This document shows positions 1 through 21,855 of a stretch of 48,918 nucleotides of DNA, one piece after another. The first letter of the stretch is position 1. The number at the start of each line of letters is the position of its first letter. A model generated the notes under the pieces. The model saw only the letters and a list, made by a program, of their open reading frames with translations, was not told where the DNA came from and did no database searches. The position numbers were made by a program, and so were the translations under genes. The DNA comes from a virus: IMG/VR virus record IMGVR_UViG_3300036850_000045, positions 1 through 48,918 of that record; one strand, 5' to 3'.

Positions 1-127
1 TGCTGGTGTGGTTCCGTGGGGCGCTGTTTATGTTGGACGCGAAAGGCGAGCGGGGCCGGATTACGGGACGGCAACAGGCCCTCCTAGACGATGGGTTTCC
101 ATTGCGGTTCGCGAAGACACCTCAAGA
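1..127. repeat. Terminal direct repeat, left copy
   Basis: These 127 bases are identical to the last 127 bases of the window (48792-48918). An exact end-to-end overlap of this size is the usual signature of a circular or circularly permuted molecule assembled by a k-mer method. It is probably not a biological terminal repeat, because it falls inside a coding sequence that reads smoothly across the junction. Confidence 0.95.
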
Positions 128-158
128 CGCACTGAAAGCCATCGGTGCGATCCGATGA
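1..158 (+). CDS. VRR-NUC-like nuclease, C-terminal part (gene wraps around the window ends)
   Basis: This is the end of an 87-residue protein that starts at 48686. Read across the circular junction it has a FD...(12 residues)...LDAKG arrangement followed by a TGRQQALLDDG segment. This matches the PD-(D/E)xK core of small phage VRR-NUC-type nucleases: acidic residue, hydrophobic strand, D/E-x-K, then a Q-rich helix. Such proteins are thought to cut branched or recombining DNA. In this copy the frame begins at base 3. The stop at 156-158 overlaps the start of the next gene. The family call is by motif only. Confidence 0.6.
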   Translation, partial: LVWFRGALFMLDAKGERGRITGRQQALLDDGFPLRFAKTPQDALKAIGAIR

Positions 159-622
159 ACAACGCGCTCATGTTCTCAAAAGCGTCGGACGAATGGAGAA
201 CGCCAAAAGAGTTCTTCGAGGCTCTCGATGCAGAGTTCGGGTTTGACGCCGACATGGCCGCCAGCGCGGAGAACTGCTGGAAGGATAACTATTGGGGTCC
301 AGATCATCACCGCGCGGATCGGCGGAACTCGCTAGTGTTTCGCTGGCCCGATGTGTGTTTCTTGAATCCCCCGTACAGCCGGTGTCGTGAGTTCATCGCG
401 AAAGCGGCCGAAGAGGCGCGGCATGGGAGCACCGTCGTATGTCTCGTCCCTTCGCGTACCGACACACGCTGGTGGCATGCATACGTCTGGGACCGCGAGC
501 AGCATCGGCCGAGAGCTGGCGTAGAAGTGCGCTTCGTGAAGGGCCGATTAAAGTTCGGCGGGGCCTCGGCCGGCGCGCCGTTTCCGAGCGTGGTGATTGT
601 GTTCCGGAGTCCGATCCGATGA
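155..622 (+). CDS. dam: Phage DNA N6-adenine methyltransferase (Dam-like)
   Basis: A protein of 155 residues that should transfer a methyl group from SAM to adenine N6. The N-terminal segment SDEWRTPKEFFEALDAEFGFD is typical of phage Dam-type enzymes. The catalytic NPPYS motif lies near residue 71, and a C-terminal segment RFVKGRLKF resembles the substrate-side strand of this family. The start is the ATG at 155, coupled by ATGA to the nuclease stop. Likely roles are protection from host restriction or marking of phage DNA. A second DNA methyltransferase follows at 810. Confidence 0.88.
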   Translation: MNNALMFSKASDEWRTPKEFFEALDAEFGFDADMAASAENCWKDNYWGPDHHRADRRNSLVFRWPDVCFLNPPYSRCREFIAKAAEEARHGSTVVCLVPSRTDTRWWHAYVWDREQHRPRAGVEVRFVKGRLKFGGASAGAPFPSVVIVFRSPIR

Positions 623-816
623 GACCAGCATTTCCAGTTGCCGCCGTGCGGTGTGCGACATGTCGGTTCCGCACGAAACGGGTGGTGCGTGAAGAGGACG
701 GTAAGTACGGGCCGTGCTCGCGGTGTGGCGGGCGGCTGGCGCTGAGTCAGGAGCAAGCCGAGCGGCGGGCTGCGAAGGCGAAGGCGGATCTACAAAGGAT
801 GGGGTTGGAGTGCTGA
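619..816 (+). CDS. Small zinc-ribbon protein
   Basis: A 65-residue protein with two cysteine pairs, CATC near residue 12 and CSRC near residue 33, followed by a basic helical tail rich in Ala, Lys and Arg. This is a zinc-ribbon or knuckle layout, so DNA or RNA binding is plausible. It starts by ATGA overlap with the Dam gene and its stop overlaps the next start, so it belongs to the same transcript. No specific family recognised. Confidence 0.7.
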   Translation: MRPAFPVAAVRCATCRFRTKRVVREEDGKYGPCSRCGGRLALSQEQAERRAAKAKADLQRMGLEC

Positions 817-1772
817 TTCGTGGGGATGCCCGGTCCTTACCGCTCAAGGATGGCTGCGTTGATTGCGTAGTGACGAGTCCGCCGTACTTCGGTTTGAGAG
901 ATTACGGCAATGCGGAACAGATTGGGCTCGAGCCGACGCCCGACGCGTACGTGCAGGCGCTGGTGGAAGTCTTTCGAGAGGTGCGGCGCGTGTTGAAATC
1001 GTGCGGGACGGTTTGGCTCAACATCGGCGACTCGTATGCGGCTGGCGGCAAAGGCGGTGGCGGGTCGTTCATGGCCGAGCGACGAGAGGCGGCATGGCAA
1101 AAACGATCGACGCTGAATGGCTGGCGACGACAGCCGGAAGGCTGCAAGGAAAAAGACTTGCTTGGCATTCCCTGGCGCGTCGCCTTTGCCCTCCGGGCCG
1201 ATGGCTGGTATCTCCGCTCAGACATCATCTGGTCCAAACCGAATCCGATGCCTGAATCCGTGACGGATCGGCCAACGAAAGCACATGAGTATCTATTTCT
1301 GCTGAGCAAGAACGAGCGGTACTACTACGACGCGGACGCGATCGCGGAGCCATTACCCGAAGTCAGCGTGAGACGGTACGAGCACGCGGTTCGGACGAAT
1401 GAACGCTTTGACCCGAAGCGGCACAAACACACCGACGGCGTGCAGTCACTGATGGAGGTTCTAACGCGCGCGGCGGCTGGCGTGCTGGAAAAGGGCACGC
1501 GAAATAAGCGTAGCGTATGGCACGTCAATACATCTCCCTATGCCGGCGCACACTTCGCCACCATGCCGGAAAAACTCATTGAGCCGTGCATTCTGGCGGG
1601 CTGTCCGCTCGGCGGGCTAGTGCTTGATCCGTTTGTGGGCTCAGGAACTGTTGTCGCCGTAGCCCAACGCCTCGGCCGGCGCGGCGTCGGCGTGGACTTG
1701 TCGTATCAAGACTTGGCGAAAGAACGGACGGCGCAACGAGGGATTCCGTTTACCGATGAGAGGACGGCCTAA
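810..1772 (+). CDS. DNA methyltransferase, beta class (N4-cytosine or N6-adenine)
   Basis: A SAM-dependent DNA methyltransferase of 320 residues. The catalytic motif TSPPYFGLRDYG (motif IV) is near the N terminus and the SAM-binding motif DPFVGSG (motif I) is near the C terminus, which is the circular order of beta-class enzymes. An SPPY core is common in N4-cytosine enzymes but also occurs in some N6-adenine ones. I chose the GTG at 810, which overlaps the previous stop by 7 bp and sits behind a purine-rich stretch (aaagga). No partner restriction enzyme is nearby, so it is best read as an orphan, probably anti-restriction, methylase. Confidence 0.88.
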   Translation: MLIRGDARSLPLKDGCVDCVVTSPPYFGLRDYGNAEQIGLEPTPDAYVQALVEVFREVRRVLKSCGTVWLNIGDSYAAGGKGGGGSFMAERREAAWQKRSTLNGWRRQPEGCKEKDLLGIPWRVAFALRADGWYLRSDIIWSKPNPMPESVTDRPTKAHEYLFLLSKNERYYYDADAIAEPLPEVSVRRYEHAVRTNERFDPKRHKHTDGVQSLMEVLTRAAAGVLEKGTRNKRSVWHVNTSPYAGAHFATMPEKLIEPCILAGCPLGGLVLDPFVGSGTVVAVAQRLGRRGVGVDLSYQDLAKERTAQRGIPFTDERTA

Positions 1773-3461: not shown

Positions 3462-3677
3462 ATGACCCCCAAGCTGGAATGCCCGCGCTGCGGCGGCTAC
3501 GTCTCGCGCGTCACAGATGCTCGACCGAGCACGGATGGCAGCGAGTTCTTCAGGCGGCGGGAGTGTGCAGCGTGCGGTCTACGCTATAGCACGAGCGAAA
3601 AAATCAGCAAGTCCACAACATCTAGTAGCACAACCAGCGATAATCTACAGTATCCTGCGAGGCGTGACTCTCGCTGA
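3462..3677 (+). CDS. NrdR-like zinc-ribbon protein lacking an ATP-cone
   Basis: A protein of 71 residues. Residues 6-50 follow the zinc-ribbon of the transcriptional repressor NrdR closely: LECPRCGG, then V-T-D-A-R-P, then FRRRECAACGLRYSTSE. NrdR controls ribonucleotide reductase genes and normally continues into a nucleotide-sensing ATP-cone; here that domain is replaced by a short Ser/Thr-rich tail. It may bind NrdR-box-like DNA without sensing nucleotides, or interfere with host NrdR. No ribonucleotide reductase is present in the window. The next gene overlaps its 3' end by 14 bp. Confidence 0.7.
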   Translation: MTPKLECPRCGGYVSRVTDARPSTDGSEFFRRRECAACGLRYSTSEKISKSTTSSSTTSDNLQYPARRDSR

Positions 3678-4035
3678 TGGAACATTTGATCCGATTCACT
3701 TCGGACACATCCAATACCTGCTCGTCGCTGCCCATCTAGACCCGCCGCTCGTCGTCCACGTCGCCCCAGACGAGGCGATCCTGGCCAAGGGTCGGGCCCC
3801 GTTCCAATCCCGCCAGGAACGGGCCATGACACTCCTCGCTCTGGGTTGTGTAGACCGGGTGCGCATGTGGCCCTCATTGGCGGACGCGATTGATGAAGAA
3901 CAGCCCAGGTATCTCGTGAAAGGCGCGGAGTGGCGCGGGAAGCTGCCAAAGGACGTGCTGGAGGCCTGCCAGCGGAACGGTGTGGAGATTGTGTATACGG
4001 ACGTCAATGCTCCGCGGAGTCGAGAGCGGCTGTGA
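3664..4035 (+). CDS. HxGH nucleotidyltransferase (cytidylyl/adenylyltransferase-like)
   Basis: A protein of 123 residues. The N-terminal ADGTFDPIHFGHIQYL matches the G-T-F-D-x-x-H-x-G-H signature of the nucleotidyltransferase superfamily. The middle LVKGAEWRGKLP resembles the (L)VKG-D segment of RfaE/HldE-type enzymes that load a nucleotide onto a sugar phosphate. It heads the sugar island, so activation of a sugar or alditol phosphate is the best guess. The start is taken as GTG 3664; the open frame extends upstream inside the previous gene, but homology begins here. Confidence 0.8.
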   Translation: MTLADGTFDPIHFGHIQYLLVAAHLDPPLVVHVAPDEAILAKGRAPFQSRQERAMTLLALGCVDRVRMWPSLADAIDEEQPRYLVKGAEWRGKLPKDVLEACQRNGVEIVYTDVNAPRSRERL

Positions 4036-4694
4036 CATTCGACGCACAACGCAGTCAGGCGGAAAGAGATCTGGCGCGGTTTGAAGCCCTCGTGCTCTCA
4101 CAGCAGCCAGCCAGCGAGCCGTGGTCGCCGGTGACGGACTACTCATTTGAGGCTCGGAAGGAGATCGAGGGCAAACACCCGGAGTTAATCTTCAAGCATC
4201 TGATTCCGTGCGATGACGCCGATGTGCTCGACTACGGGTGTGGGCCGCAGGGCCATCTCGTGCGGTTGCTCCGTGAATACCGAGATCGCTATGCGCCAAC
4301 CAGCCAAGTCGGCATCATCGGTTACGACCCGCAGGCTGATGAGACAGTGGCGGGGCTATCGCGCGAGATAGGCCGCATCGCAGCCGTGTGGGATCTTGTG
4401 ATCTGTCGCGAAGTGTTGGAGCATTGCACGGTTCGTGAGATTCGACAAGTAGTGTCTCGGTTGTGCGACTTGTCGGCGCAATTTGTGTACATAACCACGA
4501 GGTTCCATCCAGATCCGCAATCCCTCCTCGACGTGGCTACCCACGATGGGTTGGATCCTACCCACCAGAGCATGCTTAATCAAGACCTGCTTAGGGTTCT
4601 CTTTATTTTGGAAGGATTTAGGCGTAGGTCTGATTTAGAAAAACGCATGGATTGGCAGCAGAAAGGTCGAGTGCTGGTCTATGAGCGCACGTAA
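4032..4694 (+). CDS. Class I SAM-dependent methyltransferase
   Basis: A protein of 220 residues. DVLDYGCGPQGHLVRLL near residue 60 is the SAM-binding motif I (D-x-G-C-G), IGYDPQ gives the acidic residue after strand 2, and WDLVICREVLEH is motif IV of small-molecule methyltransferases. Because the neighbours are sugar enzymes, a sugar or glycan substrate is more likely than DNA. GTG start at 4032 overlaps the nucleotidyltransferase stop. Confidence 0.8.
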   Translation: MTFDAQRSQAERDLARFEALVLSQQPASEPWSPVTDYSFEARKEIEGKHPELIFKHLIPCDDADVLDYGCGPQGHLVRLLREYRDRYAPTSQVGIIGYDPQADETVAGLSREIGRIAAVWDLVICREVLEHCTVREIRQVVSRLCDLSAQFVYITTRFHPDPQSLLDVATHDGLDPTHQSMLNQDLLRVLFILEGFRRRSDLEKRMDWQQKGRVLVYERT

Positions 4695-4890
4695 CGACTA
4701 CAGAATCGAACGGAACGACGTCAGCGGTCTCTATCGCGTGAAGCGGCGCTGGCTGGGCGTGTTCTGGTTCGTCTGCGGCACCGATTATAAAGACTTCGAA
4801 TTTGAAACGCCTGAAGAAGCTGAGTGGGCCATCACACGCGCGCTTGAGGACGAAGCGAAGCGTCGCGGGCGTTGGGTACGAGTCAAGTGA
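4681..4890 (+). CDS. Small basic protein, unknown
   Basis: A protein of 69 residues predicted to contain a three-strand sheet (YRIERND, YRVKRRWLGVFWFVCG, FEFETPEEAE) followed by a helix. No family recognised. It overlaps the methyltransferase by 14 bp and its stop overlaps the start of the glycosyltransferase, so it is translated within the sugar operon. Confidence 0.55.
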   Translation: MSARNDYRIERNDVSGLYRVKRRWLGVFWFVCGTDYKDFEFETPEEAEWAITRALEDEAKRRGRWVRVK

Positions 4891-5741
4891 TGATTGACGC
4901 CGTGCTCTCATATCACGTGAATGGTGCAACGTGCGGCGTCGCGAAGTTCAACCAGCAGCTCGCGGACAGGCTCGGCGTGCCGTGCCTACCATTCGATCGG
5001 GCCGCGCACTCGAAATATCCGCTGTACTCGATCAAGCTCGCCGAGATTCCAGACGCAGGCCCGTGGCATCCCGAGCCGCCCTTCCAGTTGTTCTTGCATG
5101 ATTGGCGCGAGGCCGATCGCTTCGTCTCGTGGCTCTATAGCGCGGATCGTATCTTTGTGGCGAATCTCGCGATCGGGCGACAACTCGACAAATACATCGC
5201 CGACTGGGATGAGGCCTTCTGTCCGGCCACGATCCAAGGCAATCCGCACCGAGCCGATCTGAACGTGCTGACGTTTGGCATGGCGCACAAGATCAATCTG
5301 TCGCATTTCGTGCGGCTGAAAGTGCTCCTCGATAATACCCGTGAGGATTATACGGTCAGCGTGTCCACGGCGGTGCATGAGGGATCGCCATGGTCGGAAG
5401 TCTCAGAAGCCGGCGACCGGCTGCGCGCCATCTTCGGCGACTGCACGCGCGTGTTGGGCTATCTGGCGGACGATGCGTTGGCGCGAGAACTTCAAGACTG
5501 CGCAGCGGTGGCCATGTTTTTCGATCCAGCCGTACGAGCCAACAACACGACGTTTTGGGCGGCCCTGGGCGCAGGGAAAGCGGTAATCAGTAACCGCGAT
5601 ACTGACTCGCCGCAAGTCGGCGGGTGGTACGACATCAATGAGTTGGTGCAATTCCCAGATTGGCGCGCGCATCATCAGAATGCGTCATATTTCGAAGCGC
5701 AGTACGGATGGGACCGACTCTTGGGGATCGTGCAGCGATGA
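4890..5741 (+). CDS. Glycosyltransferase-like protein (GT-B fold suspected)
   Basis: A protein of 283 residues. Near the N terminus HVNGATCGVAKFNQQLADRL resembles the glycine-containing acceptor-side loop of GT4-type enzymes. The C-terminal half has TFWAALGAGKAVISNRD, like the donor-side region where GT-B enzymes bind the nucleotide sugar. ATG at 4890 overlaps the previous stop. The location upstream of a CMP-nonulosonate pathway makes a glycan-building role likely. The acceptor is unknown and the classification is by resemblance only. Confidence 0.65.
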   Translation: MIDAVLSYHVNGATCGVAKFNQQLADRLGVPCLPFDRAAHSKYPLYSIKLAEIPDAGPWHPEPPFQLFLHDWREADRFVSWLYSADRIFVANLAIGRQLDKYIADWDEAFCPATIQGNPHRADLNVLTFGMAHKINLSHFVRLKVLLDNTREDYTVSVSTAVHEGSPWSEVSEAGDRLRAIFGDCTRVLGYLADDALARELQDCAAVAMFFDPAVRANNTTFWAALGAGKAVISNRDTDSPQVGGWYDINELVQFPDWRAHHQNASYFEAQYGWDRLLGIVQR

Positions 5742-5965
5742 AGCTATTCTTGTTTGAACGAATCGAACACGCATCCACCAACTACCATAAGGAGGGCGGG
5801 GCTGTCGTCATCGCGTCGGACGAATCTACCGCGCGCGCATTAATCGCAAGCGGTGACGGAGAAGTCATCATCTCGGATGAAGAGTGGAGCAAGGCGATAG
5901 TGTTTGAGTTGGTTGGCGAACACGAGCCGCGCGTGATCGCGTTCCCAGATGCCGGATGCTGCTGA
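5738..5965 (+). CDS. Small protein, unknown
   Basis: A protein of 75 residues, mostly beta with an acidic middle and a final double cysteine. ATGA overlap with the glycosyltransferase upstream. No motif recognised; it may be an accessory subunit of the neighbouring sugar enzymes. Confidence 0.5.
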   Translation: MKLFLFERIEHASTNYHKEGGAVVIASDESTARALIASGDGEVIISDEEWSKAIVFELVGEHEPRVIAFPDAGCC

Positions 5966-5969
5966 AGTC

Positions 5970-6887
5970 ATGCGCGAGTTAACCATTGCTGGGCGCCTGA
6001 TTAGCGACAGCGAGCCTGCCTATGTCATCGCTGAACTCGGTGGCAATCATCAGGGGCGGCTGGAGCATGCCTGGAAACTGATCAAGTCCGCGCATCAATG
6101 TGGCGCATCAGCGGTGAAGCTCCAGAAGCGACAGAATCACACACTGTATTCCGATGCGCTGCTGCATCAGCCGTATGAGAACGAGCACAGCTTCGGCCGG
6201 ACGTACGGAGAGCATCGCCACGCGCTCGAATTGGGCGAACGAGAATATCGCGAGCTGCAGAAGTGGAGTGCCAGTCTGCCGATTCCGTTGTTCGCGACGG
6301 CATTCGATGAACCGAGCGCCGACTTGCTTGCAGCCCTGGACGTGCCCGCCATCAAGATTCACTCTGGTGGCTTGACGGACAAGCCGTTGCTGCGGCATGT
6401 CGCGTCGTTGGGGAAGCCGATCATCTTGTCAACCGGCGGCGGGACCGAGAAGGACATTGACCGCGCGATAGATAACGTGTATTGCGGGGGGGGTTGTCCG
6501 TTGGCGATCCTACATTGCACGGCTTCCTACCCATTGAAGCCAGAGGAAGCGAATCTGCGGGTCATCGGCACGCTGCGTCAGCGCTATCCCGACTTCGTGA
6601 TCGGCTTCTCGTCGCACTCGCCGGGGATTGCCTTCTCGCTGATTGCTTATGCCTTCGGCGCCAGAATATTCGAGCACCACTTCACAAATAACAGAGCGGC
6701 GAAAGGGACAGACCACGCATTCAGTCTGGAACCGAAAGGATTGGAAACGCTGGTGGATGACCTCGACAAGTTGCGCGTGGCGATCGGGGATGGCGTGAAG
6801 GTGTTCTACAACTCAGAGCGGCGCCCTATCGCGAAAATGAGGAGAACGGAACAGGAGGACGGGACTTGGAAGATCGCCGGCCGGTAG
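5970..6887 (+). CDS. neuB: Nonulosonic (sialic-type) acid synthase, NeuB family, lacking a SAF domain
   Basis: A protein of 305 residues in the family that condenses phosphoenolpyruvate with an amino-hexose to give a nine-carbon sialic-type acid. The TIM-barrel signatures run in order: AELGGNHQG, KIHSGGLTDKPLL, LSTGGGTEKDI, LHCTASYP, IGFSSHSPG and EHHFTNNRAAKGTDHAFSL. Normal NeuB proteins are about 340-350 residues and end in an antifreeze-like SAF domain that completes the neighbouring active site; here the protein stops soon after the barrel. The start at 5970 fits the family; an ATG at 5949 is also open. The cupin gene overlaps its 3' end by 22 bp. Confidence 0.88.
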   Translation: MRELTIAGRLISDSEPAYVIAELGGNHQGRLEHAWKLIKSAHQCGASAVKLQKRQNHTLYSDALLHQPYENEHSFGRTYGEHRHALELGEREYRELQKWSASLPIPLFATAFDEPSADLLAALDVPAIKIHSGGLTDKPLLRHVASLGKPIILSTGGGTEKDIDRAIDNVYCGGGCPLAILHCTASYPLKPEEANLRVIGTLRQRYPDFVIGFSSHSPGIAFSLIAYAFGARIFEHHFTNNRAAKGTDHAFSLEPKGLETLVDDLDKLRVAIGDGVKVFYNSERRPIAKMRRTEQEDGTWKIAGR

Positions 6888-7249
6888 TCGAACGTTTCGA
6901 GCCGCGGGACATCGGGGAAAAACAGTGGGGGCGCGAACTCCTCATCGCGCACACCAAGGACTACATTGGCAAAGTATTGTTGATGAAGGCCGGCTGGGGC
7001 GGTCATCTGCAGTATCACAAGCGCAAGGATGAAGCCTTTTTCGTGTACGGCGGGACCGCGCTGTTGAAGTGGACGACACCAGACGGCGAGCTGCACGAGC
7101 AGGTTATCAGCGATGGCGCGGCGTATCACATTCCGCCAGGGGCTGGGCATCAGGTGATTGCGATCACAGACCTCGTGTTGTTTGAGGTGTCCACGCCGGT
7201 GTTTGATGACCGCGTAATCATTGCGCCGTTCGAGGGGCCCGCGCGGTGA
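6866..7249 (+). CDS. Cupin-domain protein (sugar-phosphate isomerase-like)
   Basis: A single-domain cupin of 127 residues. Metal-binding residues are visible as GGHLQYHKRKDE (two His and a Glu) and the later IPPGAGHQV (His), the two conserved cupin motifs. The sequence resembles the cupin half of mannose-6-phosphate isomerase type II proteins. The TTG start is supported by a strong aggagg site 9 bp upstream and no better ATG. Its overlap with the synthase, which lacks its C-terminal domain, suggests they act together, perhaps as epimerase or accessory subunit. Confidence 0.82.
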   Translation: MEDRRPVVERFEPRDIGEKQWGRELLIAHTKDYIGKVLLMKAGWGGHLQYHKRKDEAFFVYGGTALLKWTTPDGELHEQVISDGAAYHIPPGAGHQVIAITDLVLFEVSTPVFDDRVIIAPFEGPAR

Positions 7250-7968
7250 ACATGGTTGCGCTCATTCCCGCAAGAGCCGGGAGTCGCAGGGTGCCGGGCA
7301 AGAACATCCGACCGCTGGCGGGACATCCGCTCATCGCGTACACGATTGCCGCCGCGAAAGAGAGCGGCGTATTTTCGGACATCCTCGTATCCACCGAGCA
7401 TGAGGCGACCGGCAGGCTTACGGCGGCCTACGGGGCGACCTGGGTGAAACGGCTGCCAGAACTCGCACGTGATGATTCGCCGGATATTGCGTGGGTGAGC
7501 GATGCGCTCACATATGACAAGGATTCGACGTGGAACGCGTTCGCCATCTTGCGCCCGACGTCGCCCTTCCGCACGGCTGCGACGATCCGGCGCGCCTTCA
7601 TGCAGCTCAAGCGACAAGAAGTCCATTCGATTCGCGCGGTGCGGCCCGCGAAAGAGCATCCCGGCAAGCAATGGTTCATCGAGAACGGCTGCCTGAAGCC
7701 CGTCTTGGATTGGCGCCACGTTGACACCAAGCAGCCCTGGCACTCCATGCCGACACAGACCTTACCTCCAGCGTTCGTGCAGAACTCAAGTCTCGAAATG
7801 GCGTGGACCTACATCGTGAAGTCATTTGGGACGATTTCGGGGACGAAGATTGCTCCGTTTCTCACCCAAGAGCCAGAAGGGTTGGCCATCGACACGGAAG
7901 ACGATTGGACGACGGCGTATCAACTCGCGACGCGGCGACCCGAATTACTGCCGAAGGTGACGGCGTGA
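7246..7968 (+). CDS. neuA: CMP-nonulosonate (CMP-sialate) cytidylyltransferase
   Basis: A protein of 240 residues that should activate the nine-carbon acid with CTP to give CMP-sugar. The N-terminal IPARAGSRRVPGKNI is the nucleotide-binding signature of this family, followed by L-A-G-H-P-L-I-A-Y-T-I. ILRPTSPFR lies in the substrate-binding region. GTG at 7246 sits 8 bp after a gagggg site; an ATG at 7252 is also possible. With the synthase and cupin it forms an overlapping three-gene set that makes and activates one sugar. Confidence 0.88.
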   Translation: MNMVALIPARAGSRRVPGKNIRPLAGHPLIAYTIAAAKESGVFSDILVSTEHEATGRLTAAYGATWVKRLPELARDDSPDIAWVSDALTYDKDSTWNAFAILRPTSPFRTAATIRRAFMQLKRQEVHSIRAVRPAKEHPGKQWFIENGCLKPVLDWRHVDTKQPWHSMPTQTLPPAFVQNSSLEMAWTYIVKSFGTISGTKIAPFLTQEPEGLAIDTEDDWTTAYQLATRRPELLPKVTA

Positions 7969-8915
7969 CACGACTCGATCTCCACATGCGGTGGTTGTTG
8001 CGCGGCGGCGCGCCGATTCTCGTCGGGCCGTGGCTCAGCGAAGTCGGCTTCGAATCGCTGTACTGGATTCCCTTCGTCCATTACCTGCGCCATCGCTACA
8101 ACATCAAGAAAGAGCGGTTGATTGCGGTCACGCGGGGCGGGGCGGGCTTCTGGTATGACACGGAACAATCCGTGGAGCTGCTCGACTATGTACCGCTGAA
8201 GGACTTACGGCTGGCGCAGCTCGAGCAGCACGCATTGACCAAGAGCCTCAAGCAGACGACGATCACGCCGTGGGAACAGCGATTAATGCCGCTGATTGCC
8301 GCCAGGTGCGGGCTCCGGCGCTATCGGGTGCTGCATCCGTCGCTGATGTATGCCTTCTTTCATGACTGGTGGGCCAGCAAGATGAGCCTCGTGGAGTGCC
8401 TCCATCATCTACGGTTCGCGCCGATGCCGGTGCTGTTGCCGCCGCCTGAGTTGAATTTGCCCGAGCGGTATATTGCAACGAAATTCTATCAACGCCCGAC
8501 CTGGCCGTTGAATCAGGATATTCAGCACTGGACCGAGGACTTGCTCGGGCGCCTCGCGACGAAGATGCCGATTGTGTCGCTGTCGACTGGCCTGCCGGCC
8601 GATGATCACACCGATGCGATCATTCCCGGCGTGCTGAATCTTGTCGGTAAAGTCACACCCCAGAACAACTTAGCGATTCAGAGCGCGGTCATCGCCAAGT
8701 CACAGGCTTTCTTGGGAACTTACGGAGGAACAATGCAGCTCGCGGTCCGGCTGGGCGTGCCCGCGGCGGGTTTCTTCACCGAGTTCCGCGACACATCCTA
8801 TAGCCACTTGTTACTGACGAACTACCTCGGTGTGTCAGGGCAGCGACCGGTGTTTGTGGGGCGGCCTGGCGACGCGTCCTTTATCGCTCAGATTATCACC
8901 GGGATACAGGCGTAA
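7965..8915 (+). CDS. Glycosyltransferase-like or sugar-related protein
   Basis: A protein of 316 residues. It begins LLRGGAPILVGPWLSEVGFESLYW, and the C-terminal part SQAFLGTYGGTMQLAVRLGVPAAGFFTEF resembles the donor-site region of GT-B glycosyltransferases. It could transfer the CMP-activated sugar made by the three preceding genes, but no classic sialyltransferase motif is visible. GTG start overlaps the preceding stop. Last gene of the sugar island. Confidence 0.6.
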   Translation: MTRLDLHMRWLLRGGAPILVGPWLSEVGFESLYWIPFVHYLRHRYNIKKERLIAVTRGGAGFWYDTEQSVELLDYVPLKDLRLAQLEQHALTKSLKQTTITPWEQRLMPLIAARCGLRRYRVLHPSLMYAFFHDWWASKMSLVECLHHLRFAPMPVLLPPPELNLPERYIATKFYQRPTWPLNQDIQHWTEDLLGRLATKMPIVSLSTGLPADDHTDAIIPGVLNLVGKVTPQNNLAIQSAVIAKSQAFLGTYGGTMQLAVRLGVPAAGFFTEFRDTSYSHLLLTNYLGVSGQRPVFVGRPGDASFIAQIITGIQA

Positions 8916-9222: not shown

Positions 9223-9609
9223 ATGCCACGCGGAGGCAAGCGGCCCGGCGCCGGGAAGCCGAAAGGCTACAAGCACAAACAGACGCTCGACAAAGAAGCG
9301 GCGCGACAGTTCTTGCGCGCACGTGTCATCGCCGAGCTTGCGCCTCTCGTCGAGGCCCAAATCGCGCAAGCCAAGGGCCTCAAATATCTCGTGACGCGCG
9401 ACAAAAAGACGGGGAAATTCATTCGCATCACTGAAGCGATGGCGCGTCACAAGTCACACTTGGCCGACAACGAGGAAATCATCGAGGTGTGGGAGAAGGA
9501 CCCATCGGTCCCAGCATTCATGGACCTGTTGAACAGAGCGCTGGACAAGCCGACGGAAGCCGTGACGCATGAGATCCAGGGCGGCATTTCCATCACATGG
9601 CAGAAGTAA
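9223..9609 (+). CDS. terS: Terminase small subunit-like DNA-binding protein
   Basis: A protein of 128 residues beginning with the GGKRPGAGKPKG motif typical of the N terminus of many phage small terminase and terminase-associated proteins, followed by an all-helical body. Small subunits recognise the packaging site and load the large subunit. It lies directly upstream of, and overlaps by 13 bp, the large terminase gene, which supports the call more than the sequence alone. Confidence 0.72.
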   Translation: MPRGGKRPGAGKPKGYKHKQTLDKEAARQFLRARVIAELAPLVEAQIAQAKGLKYLVTRDKKTGKFIRITEAMARHKSHLADNEEIIEVWEKDPSVPAFMDLLNRALDKPTEAVTHEIQGGISITWQK

Positions 9610-10928
9610 CCCATGTGGTCGTGCCCTACAAGCCGCGGCCGCTCCAACAGGCACTCCACGCGGCGCTCGAGACACATCGGTTCTCGGTGGCCGTCTGTCA
9701 TCGCCGATTCGGCAAAACCGTGATGGCGGTGAACCATCTCCAGAAAGCGGCGTTGACGTGCCAGAAGCCGCGACCCAGATTCGCGTATATCGCGCCGACC
9801 TATACGCAAGGCAAGGCCATTGCTTGGGATTACATGAAGCACTACGCGAGCCCGATTCCGAGCCATCTGCCGCATGAGTCAGAGTTGCGGGTCGACTACC
9901 CGAACGAGAGCCGCGTGCGCATCTTCGGGGCAGACAATCCCGACTCGCTGCGCGGCATCTACCTCGATGGCGTGGTGCTGGACGAATATGGACTGCAGCC
10001 ACCGAAGATCTTTAGTGAAGTCATTCGCCCGTTGCTGACCGATCGGCAAGGCTGGGCGCTATTCATTGGCACCCCGAACGGCAAGAACCAGTTTTACGAT
10101 GTGGCGCAGCAAGCGCAACGAGAATCGGATTGGTTCTTCGCGGAGTATCGCGCCTCGCAGACTGGCATTTTGTCGCAGTCTGAGCTGGACGACGCGAAGC
10201 GCTCCATGACGCCAGATGAATACGCCCAGGAGTTCGAGTGCTCCTTTGAGGCGTCCGTCAAAGGCGCCGTGTATGCGCGTGAGCTGCTCGCGACCCGTGA
10301 GTCTGGCCGACTGACGCGCGTGCCGTATGACCCGGCCGTGCCTGTCGATACCGATTGGGACCTAGGCTTCGGCGATACCACAGCGGTGTGGTTCTCACAG
10401 AGCTTCCCGTCTGGAGAGATTCGACTGATCGATTACTACGAAGCGGTCGGCCAGGGCCTGCCGCACTTTCTCTCGGTCCTGAAGGCGAAGAACTACGTCT
10501 ACGGGAATCATTGGGCGCCGCATGACATCCAACTGCTCGAGATGTCTGGGCAGAGCCGTCTCAAGGCCGCGCACAGTCTCGGGCTCAACTTCGTGATCTC
10601 GCCCAAGGTGGAGCACATCGAAGACGGCATCCACAATGTCAGGATGTTGTTACCGCGCTGTTATTTCGATGCGGATCGGTGTCGTGACGGTCTGGAAGCG
10701 TTGCACAACTACCGATGGAAACAGCCGCACGTGCAGGATCCGACCGGGCGCCCATTGCCTGTCCATGACTGGGCGAGTCACGGGGCGGACGCATTCAGGG
10801 GCCTCGCGACGCGGCATCTGACGCCACGGCCGAAGAAGCCGAAGCAAGAACAGGACATTGACATCAGCGAGCGGCAACTGTGGCGCGCGCGGCGGCATGC
10901 CGGCGTGGGACGTGGAGGATACGGGTAA
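9597..10928 (+). CDS. terL: Terminase large subunit
   Basis: The DNA-packaging motor and nuclease, 443 residues. The Walker A-type motif CHRRFGKT is at residues 34-41, the Walker B GVVLDEYG near residues 124-131, and a coupling-type GTPNGKN follows. The C-terminal RNase H-like nuclease shows DTDWDLGFGDT, WAPHD and the late DWASHGADAFR, supplying the metal-binding acidic residues. The length is normal for the family. Confidence 0.95.
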   Translation: MAEVTHVVVPYKPRPLQQALHAALETHRFSVAVCHRRFGKTVMAVNHLQKAALTCQKPRPRFAYIAPTYTQGKAIAWDYMKHYASPIPSHLPHESELRVDYPNESRVRIFGADNPDSLRGIYLDGVVLDEYGLQPPKIFSEVIRPLLTDRQGWALFIGTPNGKNQFYDVAQQAQRESDWFFAEYRASQTGILSQSELDDAKRSMTPDEYAQEFECSFEASVKGAVYARELLATRESGRLTRVPYDPAVPVDTDWDLGFGDTTAVWFSQSFPSGEIRLIDYYEAVGQGLPHFLSVLKAKNYVYGNHWAPHDIQLLEMSGQSRLKAAHSLGLNFVISPKVEHIEDGIHNVRMLLPRCYFDADRCRDGLEALHNYRWKQPHVQDPTGRPLPVHDWASHGADAFRGLATRHLTPRPKKPKQEQDIDISERQLWRARRHAGVGRGGYG

Positions 10929-15117: not shown

Positions 15118-15254
15118 CGCGCATTCCGTCTTCGTGGGGCGACACCTTAACATTCGTGGCGATAGTTCTGACCTATTTGGCCGGCCTTGCCGTGTTCGTC
15201 CTCACGATGGATTGGCTGTTGACGGCCATTGAAAAAATAAACAGGCTGCCATGA
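15114..15254 (+). CDS. Small single-pass membrane protein (46 aa)
   Basis: A 46-residue protein with one strong membrane segment (residues 12-37, LTFVAIVLTYLAGLAVFVLT). GTG start overlaps the preceding stop and its own stop overlaps the co-chaperonin start. Small membrane proteins inside head modules are uncommon; role unknown. Confidence 0.5.
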   Translation: MTRIPSSWGDTLTFVAIVLTYLAGLAVFVLTMDWLLTAIEKINRLP

Positions 15255-15694
15255 ATAACATCCCAATTCGGGTATGTGGCCCGCGTGTGCTCATCAAGCC
15301 GGACATCGAAGAACAAAAGCCGGAACAAACGGCATCAGGCCTCTACCTCGCGAAGACACTTGAAGCCGCAGCGACGGGCGAAGATGCCCGCGAGGCGTGG
15401 TATACCGGCGTGGTGGTCGCGTTTGGCGAAGAGCGGCCCGTGTTTGATGTGCGGCCGTATGTGAAGCGTCGACTCAATGAAGCCTTGGACGCGACGTCCT
15501 ATCTCGATCTCGCGACTGATATCACCGCTCTTTACAACGACCTTGAGACGCTGCCCGCTGAGCGTGTGCGCGACGTCGCCATCGGCGATCACGTCACTTT
15601 CTCCGCGCGAGCGGGTCAAGAACTCGACATTGATGGAGACAGCTACTTGATCATGAACGAAACCGATATCCTCGGTGTACTGGAGACTGCCTAG
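15251..15694 (+). CDS. GroES-like co-chaperonin with internal insertion
   Basis: A protein of 147 residues. The N terminus IRVCGPRVLIKPDIEE and later ASGLYLAK match the first strands and mobile-loop region of GroES, and the C terminus VAIGDHVTFSARAGQELDIDGDSYLIMNETDILGVLE matches its second half. GroES is about 97 residues; the extra ~50 lie between the halves (from about 45 to 105). Phage GroES analogues such as T4 gp31 replace host GroES to fold their capsid protein, and this gene lies next to scaffold and capsid genes. Confidence 0.8.
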   Translation: MNNIPIRVCGPRVLIKPDIEEQKPEQTASGLYLAKTLEAAATGEDAREAWYTGVVVAFGEERPVFDVRPYVKRRLNEALDATSYLDLATDITALYNDLETLPAERVRDVAIGDHVTFSARAGQELDIDGDSYLIMNETDILGVLETA

Positions 15695-16717: not shown

Positions 16718-17281
16718 ATGCCTCGCAAGAAGAGTGACACGACAGAGACTGAGACCCTTGACACCCCGAAGCCGCCGCGCGTGACGGTGCGCAGCCGATC
16801 AGAGATCATTGAACGCCGCCTCGCCGATCCGATGGGTGGGGGCGGTTCTCTACCGATTCCCTCGCGCCGCAAGGACCGCCAGGGCCGTCCGCTGACCATG
16901 TTCTACATCGCGAACTCCGAGATCGCGGCCGATCATGTGTGGCGCATGCGGAAAGTCTTGGGCTGGGAGTTTGCCACGCCAGAAGACATCGACGGCGCGG
17001 CCGAAGATCACGGCTTCGAAGCACGTGACGGCAGACTGGTGCGCGGGCCGAAAGGCCAGGAAGTCCTGATGAAGATGCCGAAGGCGGATTATGACGCCGT
17101 GCAGCAGGCCAAGAGCGACTGGAATCGCCGGCAAGCACTGGGGAACGAAGAGACCAAGGCCACGATTGTGGAGCGCGCGTCAGCCGAGCTCGGCGATGAA
17201 GGCGCGGACTTCCTGAACCGCTCAATCAGTAACGTCACGATCGAAGACACATACGAACGGATCCCCGTCGACGAACAGTGA
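16718..17281 (+). CDS. Head-module protein, unknown
   Basis: A protein of 187 residues. It has a basic disordered N terminus, a central part with a small sheet (LTMFYIANSEIAADHVWRMRK), and an acidic C terminus. It is flanked by the anti-defence gene and a winged-helix gene, upstream of capsid. It may be a minor head or assembly protein; no motif recognised. Confidence 0.55.
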   Translation: MPRKKSDTTETETLDTPKPPRVTVRSRSEIIERRLADPMGGGGSLPIPSRRKDRQGRPLTMFYIANSEIAADHVWRMRKVLGWEFATPEDIDGAAEDHGFEARDGRLVRGPKGQEVLMKMPKADYDAVQQAKSDWNRRQALGNEETKATIVERASAELGDEGADFLNRSISNVTIEDTYERIPVDEQ

Positions 17282-17846: not shown

Positions 17847-18443
17847 ATGGCTGATTGGACCAATACCACAAACAGCTACTTCCGCCCGTACCGGCATCCG
17901 CTCGGCTCGCCGCCGATTCGCTACTTTGAGGAATCGACCTGCGCAGCCACGGCGGTCATCCGCTACGGCGACGTAGTCTCCTTCGATACGGTGGTGGCAA
18001 CCGCTGGACATCGGATTCTCCGCGCGCCGTCGAGTGGCGGCACAGGCACCAACCTCCTGCAAGTCGGCATCACGTCACTACTCGGCGTCTGCGGTGAGAA
18101 CAGCACGTCTGATGGCTCGACCACTGGCCTGACCAATGGCACGGTCGTCGGCCCGCAGAGGGTCAATCGCAAGCTGGGCGTGTGGCTGGCGGACGAAAAC
18201 ACGGAGTTCATCGGCTTCATGTCGACGCAGGGCGGCAACAACTTGGCCGCGTCGACGCTGATCGGGCTCACCAAGGCGGTCATCTATGACCGCACGCTGA
18301 ATCGGTTCCTGATCGACTCGACCAATTCGACCGCTGCCCTGGCTGCCGTCAAGATCACGGACATTCCGTCCGAGTCGATCAACGACACCAACGGGCCGGT
18401 CATCTTCAAATTCCTGTCGTCCAATGTGGCGACGGGCGTGTAG
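17847..18443 (+). CDS. Probable head decoration or capsid-associated protein
   Basis: A protein of 198 residues, beta-rich with many Ser, Thr, Gly and Asn, and no cysteine-rich or catalytic motif. It lies directly upstream of the major capsid gene, separated by 15 bp, where gpT-type phages often carry a cement protein. The call rests on position and composition. Confidence 0.6.
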   Translation: MADWTNTTNSYFRPYRHPLGSPPIRYFEESTCAATAVIRYGDVVSFDTVVATAGHRILRAPSSGGTGTNLLQVGITSLLGVCGENSTSDGSTTGLTNGTVVGPQRVNRKLGVWLADENTEFIGFMSTQGGNNLAASTLIGLTKAVIYDRTLNRFLIDSTNSTAALAAVKITDIPSESINDTNGPVIFKFLSSNVATGV

Positions 18444-18458
18444 TGGAGGGTGTGACAC

Positions 18459-19379
18459 ATGGCTCAATCACGCGGCACATTCTCTGAACTCCACGACAAT
18501 CTCGACCGCACCGTCTATACCTTGCTGAGCAAGGAGTGGAAGGAGCGGAAAAAGATCTGGACACAGGTCTATGACCAGAAGACCAGCAAGAAGCGATCAG
18601 AACAGGTGATGACCGTCACGGGCGTCGGCGACATTCCGGAAAAGCCGGAAGGGCAGCCGTTCACCAGTGACATCATCCGGAAGGGCTACGAACGCGAGTT
18701 CCTCCATACCGAGTTCGGCAACATGTTTGAGGTGACCCAAACGGCCCTCGAAGATGACCGGACGGACGTGTTGGCGGGGCACGCGAAGTGGTTCATGTTC
18801 GCGGCACGTGTCGTCCAGGAGAAGCGCGCACATCTCCTGTTCAACAACGGATTCACGTCGGAAACCTCGCCTGATGGCGCGTCGATTTTCAACACGGCGC
18901 ACAACCTCAAGGGAGGCGGCACGGCGCGCAATCGGCCAGCGACGGACGCAAATCTCTCATGGAGCTCGTTGCAGACAGCGCTGATTGACTGGCACACGGA
19001 TCAGAAGTTCGAAGCCGGTCAGTTCATCATGCCGACCGAGAACCTGCTGCTGTTCGTCCCGCCGGCCCTCATGTTGACGGCCGATCGGATCGTGAACAGC
19101 AAGCAGCTCCCAGGCTCGGCGGACAACGATCGCAACTCCATCAATGCGCTCTACAACATCAAGGTGTTGTCGAGCCCCTATCTCACGGATTCGAACAACT
19201 GGTTCTTGCTGAGCGATCAGAAGGACGAGCACGGGTTCTGCAGCTACACGCGTGTGGCGATGACCATGCTCGACCCGATGACGAACTCGCGCACGCGGAA
19301 CCGGGAGTATCCGATCCGGTGGCGGCAGTCGTGGGGCTCGCGGTGGTGGCAGGGGGCGTACGGCGTCGCACCGGCGTAA
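18459..19379 (+). CDS. Major capsid protein (Mu gpT-like, HK97 fold)
   Basis: A protein of 306 residues. A helical N-arm (ELHDNLDRTVYTLLSKEWKE) leads into a body containing DGASIFNTAHNLKGGG, similar to the D-G-x-x-L-F-x-x-x-H segment of Mu gpT-like head subunits, and an aromatic C terminus (YPIRWRQSWGSRWWQGAYG). The length is close to the gpT family (~300). It stands after portal, co-chaperonin and scaffold, and is followed by a strong inverted repeat that may limit read-through. Confidence 0.82.
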   Translation: MAQSRGTFSELHDNLDRTVYTLLSKEWKERKKIWTQVYDQKTSKKRSEQVMTVTGVGDIPEKPEGQPFTSDIIRKGYEREFLHTEFGNMFEVTQTALEDDRTDVLAGHAKWFMFAARVVQEKRAHLLFNNGFTSETSPDGASIFNTAHNLKGGGTARNRPATDANLSWSSLQTALIDWHTDQKFEAGQFIMPTENLLLFVPPALMLTADRIVNSKQLPGSADNDRNSINALYNIKVLSSPYLTDSNNWFLLSDQKDEHGFCSYTRVAMTMLDPMTNSRTRNREYPIRWRQSWGSRWWQGAYGVAPA

Positions 19380-20682: not shown

Positions 20683-21855
20683 GTGCTGAACCACGGACCG
20701 CAGGTCGGGTACAACTACGTCTACAACGACGTCACCCTGAAGTGGGACGCGATGGCGCAGCCATCGACTGCCGCGGGCGGGGCGGGGTCGACGCAAGTCA
20801 TTGCGCGGCCGGGTGATACCAGTTGGGCCTCGTCGGCGGGTTTCCATTTCAACAGCAGCGGCGATCTTTTGACAGCTGGCAGCGGCGGCAGTGGATCCAC
20901 GCAGGTCTCGATCGCGGACATCCTGACAAAAGCTAGCGGGACGTCCGTCATGGATTCGACACAGAACTCCATCGGCGTGACGATCCGCGAAGGCTCGGCG
21001 GCAGGCTCAACCCAGGTCAGTATCAGCAGCGGCATGGTGCAGGCGCAGCCGAGGAGCGATAGCGGCGTCAGTCTGTCCACGGATGCGACCCCAGCGAGCA
21101 CGCGACAAGGCCTCGTTGTGCGGCAGGTGGATTACAGCACGATCATGACCGTCTCGACGGGTCATGTCACGGTCGATACCGGCTCCATCAGCGTCAGTAA
21201 CTTCTCGACACAGATGGCGGTCAGTTCGGTGGCTGGCGAGGTGTTCATCAAGCCGGTGGCGGGCTCCACGTTCAGTGTCCGTCCGCTGCAGTCCAGCGCG
21301 GCCGACCTCCAGATGACCGCCACGCCGGTCGCTGGCAGTACTTGGAACGTACGACCGCTGCAATCGTCAGCGGCGGATCTGCAGATGACCGCCTCGCAGA
21401 ACTCCACGGCCACATGGTCCATCCTCTCGCGGCTCACGACGTCCTCGGGCGGTGCACTCGAAGGCTCGACCACGCAGCCCGGCGGGGCAGTCCTCGGGTT
21501 CCATGTGCGGACAGTGTTCCCCTCGCTGCAATCGACGGGGCGCAGCACGACCGGAAACGGCTCGACGCGTGAGACCTTTGTCTCTTCCGCGGCGGGCGCG
21601 CGCGTCAAGGTCTATGCCTACTCGATCACGAGCACCGCACAGGCCGTGAATCAAGTCGGGTGGTTCTCCTCGAACGCCAACCTGCTCTGGCCGATTGTGA
21701 TGCAGTCGTTTTCGAGCGGCATTACCGGCGCGAATTTGGCCGTGTCGCCGCCGGCGTGGTTGTTTGCGACGGACGCGGCGAATGCGTTGACGTTCGGCAT
21801 TACGGGCACGACGGGCACCTACAACGTCGGCGTCTCGTGGTTTACGGATACGTAA
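20683..21855 (+). CDS. Ser/Thr-rich fibre-like structural protein with internal repeats
   Basis: A protein of 390 residues, very rich in Ser, Thr, Ala and Gly. Two tandem copies of a ~24-residue unit occur near residues 195-242: VAGSTxxVRPLQSSAADLQM twice. There are several GSTQV(S/I) short repeats in the first third. Repetitive beta-rich proteins of this kind form fibres, spikes or adhesins. The C-terminal 120 residues are less repetitive and could be a globular tip. GTG start 1 bp after the preceding stop. Confidence 0.6.
   Translation: MLNHGPQVGYNYVYNDVTLKWDAMAQPSTAAGGAGSTQVIARPGDTSWASSAGFHFNSSGDLLTAGSGGSGSTQVSIADILTKASGTSVMDSTQNSIGVTIREGSAAGSTQVSISSGMVQAQPRSDSGVSLSTDATPASTRQGLVVRQVDYSTIMTVSTGHVTVDTGSISVSNFSTQMAVSSVAGEVFIKPVAGSTFSVRPLQSSAADLQMTATPVAGSTWNVRPLQSSAADLQMTASQNSTATWSILSRLTTSSGGALEGSTTQPGGAVLGFHVRTVFPSLQSTGRSTTGNGSTRETFVSSAAGARVKVYAYSITSTAQAVNQVGWFSSNANLLWPIVMQSFSSGITGANLAVSPPAWLFATDAANALTFGITGTTGTYNVGVSWFTDT

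Follow-up and report, generated by a model that had tools for sequence, protein, structure and literature searches.

We show here that a virus genome, a linear IMG/VR record of 48,918 bases (the window, that is, the whole stretch of DNA that was analysed), carries a tightly packed block of seven genes, all on one strand, for a nucleotidyltransferase, a methyltransferase, a glycosyltransferase (GTa), a NeuB-family synthase, a cupin, a NeuA cytidylyltransferase and a second glycosyltransferase (GTb), together with two small ORFs (Table 1). It is already known that phage transferases glycosylate virions and that phage enzymes alter host nonulosonates; what is new is a phage-borne synthase with its activator and transferases, conserved throughout a lineage and with the synthase remodelled. 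We see even chances that enzymes expressed late in the cytoplasm draw in part on host precursors to produce a nonulosonate-like acid in CMP-activated form, and that the transferases of the cassette then add it to an acceptor, with virion proteins as the most likely target. If true, these phages would carry synthase, activator and transferases themselves, beyond merely altering host sialic-type sugars, and would do so under selection across an uncultured lineage. A bolder reading, tentative and in our judgement somewhat unlikely, is that a phage lineage evolved a ulosonate synthase of its own, with one domain and a changed active site, and uses it to turn a non-acetamido aldose into a CMP-activated acidic sugar of a kind not described before, with which the capsid is coated. 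Literature searches on phage-borne nonulosonate synthesis gave nothing direct.

In the proposed route, the block would be the phage counterpart of a surface-glycan cluster of cells. As its family membership implies, NeuB would condense PEP with an aldose, probably supplied or isomerised by the cupin, to a nonulosonate-type alpha-keto acid, which NeuA, again going by its family, would convert into a CMP-sugar. The nucleotidyltransferase and methyltransferase, which are fused in several genomes, may make a second group that is methylated and nucleotide-activated. GTa and GTb, both with predicted GT-B folds, would move these groups onto a cytoplasmic acceptor, most likely a virion protein, as the particles assemble.

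A conserved block of seven genes

Table 1. Genes of the block and the two small ORFs in the window, with the evidence for each assignment
Feature	Coordinates	Strand	Evidence and remarks
HxGH nucleotidyltransferase (HldE-C / TagD-like)	3664..4035	+	GTG start; PF01467 46 bits
SAM-dependent methyltransferase	4032..4694	+	PF13489 25 bits, sub-threshold; GTGA overlap with nucleotidyltransferase
Small ORF, function not assigned	4681..4890	+	No convincing family match
GTa, GT-B fold, GT4-like glycosyltransferase	4890..5741	+	AlphaFold2 and Foldseek
Small ORF, function not assigned	5738..5965	+	Weak match to phrog_5444 (function-unknown family)
NeuB-family PEP-condensing synthase	5970..6887	+	PF03102 233 bits; single TIM-barrel domain without SAF; Gly at Glu134 position
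Cupin, possible sugar isomerase	6866..7249	+	PF07883 28 bits; QxH(x4)E...H metal-site pattern
NeuA, CMP-nonulosonate-type cytidylyltransferase	7246..7968	+	PF02348 69 bits, PseF 99 bits; GTGA overlap with cupin
GTb, GT-B fold, GT9 heptosyltransferase-like glycosyltransferase	7965..8915	+	AlphaFold2 and Foldseek; GTGA overlap with NeuA

The original prediction had described overlapping NeuB, cupin and NeuA genes within an island (3664-8915) that also held an HxGH nucleotidyltransferase, a methyltransferase and two glycosyltransferase-like proteins, and all of these were recovered, the methyltransferase by a weak match that is stronger (47 bits) in a fused cellular homologue. The GTGA start/stop overlaps at three junctions (Table 1) are as expected for a translationally coupled unit.

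Scans of viral contigs by alignment yielded 35 loci with NeuB, 36 with GTb and 20 with GTa. In most contigs of sufficient length, profile mapping gave the gene order nucleotidyltransferase, methyltransferase, GTa, NeuB, (cupin), NeuA, GTb; the complete seven-gene set was present in 16 contigs, and two more with a separate GTb bring the number to 18. In related pairs dN/dS was 0.10-0.21 for NeuB and about 0.02-0.40 for the whole block, by which measure the block is under purifying selection. Because the order is kept in many divergent contigs at such dN/dS values, the block is not a chance assembly. The survey of related phages that had been proposed as a check found the whole block, with its gene order kept, in many IMG/VR contigs that diverge from one another, and the families, the predicted folds and this order bear out the view of one conserved module that could make and attach an acidic sugar. 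Two related blocks (L085, 3300045284_000227, and L088, 3300047408_000148) have GTb proteins that are 100% identical and NeuB proteins that are 92% identical while NeuA is only 56% identical, which suggests that NeuA was exchanged by recombination.

There is no cultured model, since tblastn of NeuB against isolated phages gave only three distant matches (30-37% identity) and the same collection held no GTb match and no portal match; no isolated phage in it carries the block. Defence-system models gave no match.

A remodelled synthase and its cellular relatives

Like the NeuB of Neisseria meningitidis (1xuu) and SpsE of Bacillus subtilis (1vli), the window NeuB has a TIM barrel with the PEP- and metal-site residues and covers the full PF03102 model (1-241; 233 bits against a gathering score of 22.1, E 5e-69). 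Unlike them, it gives no match to the SAF domain (PF08666), its chain ending shortly past the barrel, and it has Gly where the alignment places Glu134 of the N. meningitidis enzyme. Its best-scoring NCBIfam model is NeuAc synthase (TIGR03569), whose equivalog cut-off of 399.65 bits it does not reach with 227.8 bits, and the PseI model likewise falls short (191 bits, cut-off 340). The assignment to a NeuB-family synthase stands, but the description of its product as sialic is not supported, given these cut-offs, the missing SAF and the lost acidic residue; the product sugar is probably not Neu5Ac.

The loss of SAF has a clear phylogenetic pattern. The domain is absent from 23 of the 34 viral NeuB proteins, and in all 23 position 134 is Gly, Ala or Ser, whereas Asp occupies this position in 10 of the 34, all with a SAF-type tail, and one further tailed protein has Cys; the tail was confirmed as SAF by Pfam in one viral protein (L023). 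The SAF-less proteins form a single clade in the NeuB tree (support 99), which is explicable by one loss. Ten other residues of the site are invariant in all 34 proteins, namely Glu22, Lys50, Lys129, Ser132, Tyr187, Ser214, His216, Glu235, His237 and Asp248 (numbered in the window NeuB from 5970). Loss of key active-site residues in alignment had been named earlier as a possible refutation; the acidic one matching Glu134 is lost, and the other site positions are intact. The loss of that acidic residue is a fact of the sequence and does not imply a proven defect. Of the SAF residues of the meningococcal enzyme, only Arg314 extends into the active site, and the R314A variant has no activity (PMC6795526). 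Since this arginine is essential in a sialic acid synthase, the SAF-less proteins probably handle their substrate differently. The SAF-less architecture is not unique by itself, because the PDB holds such a chain (6ncs, 290 residues). The single joint loss of SAF and of an acidic active-site residue offers a natural experiment in substrate choice and enclosure by NeuB enzymes.

It could be argued that NeuB is decayed or is no synthase at all, and that the transferases alone matter. The joint loss of SAF and the acidic residue would fit this, as would the contigs that have GTb and no NeuB. However, the metal-ligand histidines, the PEP-site lysines and the Tyr, Ser and Asp of the site are conserved across the clade, and the dN/dS of NeuB is low (0.10-0.21), so that we regard decay as improbable.

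From a genome scan for NeuB came at least 520 related stretches, of which the best 80 (51-59% identity) encode proteins of at least 340 residues with Asp at the Glu134 position in all 80, and Pfam confirmed SAF in the three of these that were tested. Homologues of aldehyde dehydrogenase lie near 52, and of transketolase near 46, of these 80 loci, and a phage-type cupin in only one. The window NeuB belongs to a large cellular subfamily that is often encoded near SDR, aldehyde dehydrogenase and transketolase genes, with clusters in Chloroflexota, Acidobacteriota, Desulfobacterota and others. NeuA is related in the two settings, and homologues of the nucleotidyltransferase-methyltransferase, GTa and GTb are common to the phage block and the Acidobacteriota clusters; in contrast to the cellular subfamily, which keeps SAF and Asp134, the window has neither these features nor SDR, aldehyde dehydrogenase and transketolase genes. 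One phage contig (3300037044_000019) has kept SDR and transketolase genes inside the block. The original prediction had noted that the early precursor enzymes, a 2-epimerase and a dehydratase, are missing. The classical enzymes are indeed absent, but because the genes near NeuB in cellular clusters of this kind are those for SDR, aldehyde dehydrogenase and transketolase, the missing set is probably a different one.

These observations also bear on the idea of an ordinary Neu5Ac module fed by host ManNAc. NeuAc synthase is the top NCBIfam model for NeuB (228 bits), but this score is below the model cut-off of 400, the protein has no SAF, the domain whose Arg314 the meningococcal enzyme cannot do without (PMC6795526), and the cellular relatives sit near aldehyde dehydrogenase and transketolase; we consider such a module extremely improbable.

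The NeuB-SDR-aldehyde dehydrogenase-NeuA-transketolase cluster is widespread in cells (for example L095:8001-13372 and L102:7995-14304). The literature searched assigns no product to it, and searches for a NeuB-transketolase pathway gave nothing direct. The phage proteins may be a compact system for finding this product.

The claim of a CMP-nonulosonate cytidylyltransferase was upheld: besides its PF02348 match, the family profile of NeuA scores about 106 bits against CMP-NeuAc synthetases (including 1eyr) and at most 45 bits against KdsB, a preference of about 60 bits. Against PseF (TIGR03584) the window protein reaches 99.4 bits, below the equivalog cut-off of 205.7. The cupin predicted between NeuB and NeuA was also found, its match to PF07883 (Cupin_2) being marginally above the cut-off at 28 bits. 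Its conserved motifs are LQYHxxKDE and PPGAxH, and its closest solved structures by profile are oxalate decarboxylases. The metal ligands of phosphomannose isomerase are Gln/His/Glu/His. A route from mannose to Kdn by way of the cupin fits the metal-site pattern and the loss of SAF; with oxalate decarboxylases as the best profile matches of the cupin among solved structures it is a guess, and we did not adopt it.

For the nucleotidyltransferase, rfaE_dom_II is the top NCBIfam model at a score far under its cut-off, and the nearest solved structure is glycerol-3-phosphate cytidylyltransferase (1coz). It forms a single fused ORF with the methyltransferase in several phages and in Acidobacteriota; in the cellular fused homologue L134 both PF01467 and PF13489 are above the cut-off.

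Transferases and the likely acceptor

GTa and GTb gave no match in Pfam, NCBIfam or PHROG searches, and AlphaFold2 models were built on their viral homologues. The GTa model (pLDDT 91.9, pTM 0.77) retrieved SenB, TarM, Asp1 and other GT-B enzymes from the PDB with Foldseek (E 1e-7; global TM-scores 0.3-0.4), and the GTb model (pLDDT 91.9, pTM 0.91) retrieved the GT9 enzyme 3tov (E 1.8e-5) and WaaC at the top (TM-score 0.4-0.5). Because global TM-scores are low (0.3-0.5), both are assigned at the level of fold and not of family. The description of two glycosyltransferase-like proteins nevertheless agrees with the GT-B fold predicted for each, despite the lack of a sequence-family match. GTb homologues were also seen in two records, L219 (3300011443_000006) and L065 (3300009678_000010), that have no NeuB match in the stretch or record searched, so that in part of the phages the donor of GTb may be a different one.

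All 22 cellular homologues of GTa adjoin NeuB and/or the nucleotidyltransferase. In the GTa tree, phage and cellular proteins are two distinct groups (support 99.9), consistent with a single old exchange between phage and cell in either direction. GTa is also found in ten loci titled Acidobacteriota and one titled Acidimicrobiia, most of which have the nucleotidyltransferase-methyltransferase and GTb too. In two trees the locus titled Acidimicrobiia (L160, VFYY01000011.1) falls among Acidobacteriota, and a phylum search started from its genome drew the sample that an Acidobacteriota genome also drew; the title may therefore be wrong and the genome also from Acidobacteriota. In the Acidobacteriota cluster L102 the GTb homologue is fused to a GT2 domain.

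At least nine relatives have the block within the head operon and in the same orientation, between the portal and the major capsid protein; it is flanked there by homologues of window 16718-17281 and 17847-18443, and after the latter comes the major capsid protein (18459-19379). The window block is outside the head operon, with the terminase genes just downstream of it. Five relatives have GTb alone upstream of the portal and the remaining block genes elsewhere. A location beside the packaging genes had been called unusual; the window block does adjoin the terminase genes, but in relatives it is often within the head operon. NeuB gave no match in nine records whose portals are more distant (35-41% identity; length over 42 kb in eight) and in three shorter ones, which makes the block an accessory of one clade and indicates that NeuB is not required for building a virion.

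Among plus-strand ORFs of at least 60 amino acids in the window, none has more than one predicted membrane segment, which is evidence against a Gtr system, a flippase or a polymerase. Given the place of the block in the late/head region, and with no machinery for membrane export evident in the phage, a virion protein is the most likely acceptor; host surface, virion and DNA had all been named as targets, and the virion is favoured among them. Weighing against the virion are the position of the window block upstream of the terminase genes, the separate GTb of five relatives, the lack of NeuB in phages with more distant portals and the cellular homologues, which presumably act on surface glycans. 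The 390-residue product of window 20683-21855 (28% Ser+Thr, no family match), which has a homologue in the capsid-tail region of relatives, is possibly a spike or decoration protein and a candidate glycan acceptor.

Host surface, phage DNA and known systems

Alternatively, the cassette may remodel a host polysaccharide during infection or lysogeny, blocking superinfection or changing serotype, the main rival reading, which we find possible if rather unlikely. In the Acidobacteriota clusters, other glycosyltransferases are the neighbours of homologues of NeuB, NeuA, the nucleotidyltransferase-methyltransferase and the block's transferases; a PF00589 tyrosine integrase was matched in 5 of 18 records; and for Acinetobacter it is known that phages can encode enzymes modifying the pseudaminic acid of the host (PMC12053666). 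However, the window has no multi-span transferase, flippase or polymerase, neither the window nor 12 of the other records searched matched an integrase (records may be incomplete), and the block is among late head genes in many relatives. Since the window has neither an integrase match nor a multi-span membrane protein, lysogenic conversion is less likely for it; lysogenic effects are possible in the 5 of 18 records that bear an integrase.

The host itself cannot be named from GTa because its cellular homologues are too sparse (8 of 297 Acidobacteriota genomes, 1 of 301 Chloroflexota, and 2 of 249 and 0 of 246 in two further phyla). The portal had no match in 396 Acidobacteriota genomes, in a search run without a positive control. 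The terminase (window 9597-10928) is 48% identical to that of Pelagibacter podoviruses.

The preferred reading, modification of virion proteins, has precedents that differ from it in extent. Work by Freeman in 2023 (cited in PMC12619734) is said to have found mycobacteriophage virions to be glycosylated, with glycans on capsid and tail-tube proteins; the window phage also encodes putative enzymes of sugar synthesis and activation. In Acinetobacter, two reports (PMC12053666, PMC6586298) describe phage-encoded modification of nonulosonates that acts on host-made sugars. The phage genes there, as here, act on nonulosonic acids, whereas NeuB and NeuA themselves are phage-borne here.

Finally, the transferases might put the sugar on phage DNA as a protection against restriction. 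Virus-encoded DNA-modifying glycosyltransferases are known from work cited in PMC12619734, and the window has two DNA methyltransferases; but no thymidylate-synthase-like, hydroxymethylase or base-kinase gene was present among the window proteins scanned (which included part of the small ORFs), and the cellular homologues sit in glycan clusters, so that DNA hypermodification seems very improbable. The two DNA methyltransferases, one Dam-type (PF05869) and one N6/N4-type (PF01555), lie at the left end of the window (8-1772), and an ORF of the head operon (15251-15694) matches the GroES PHROG over its final 39 residues.
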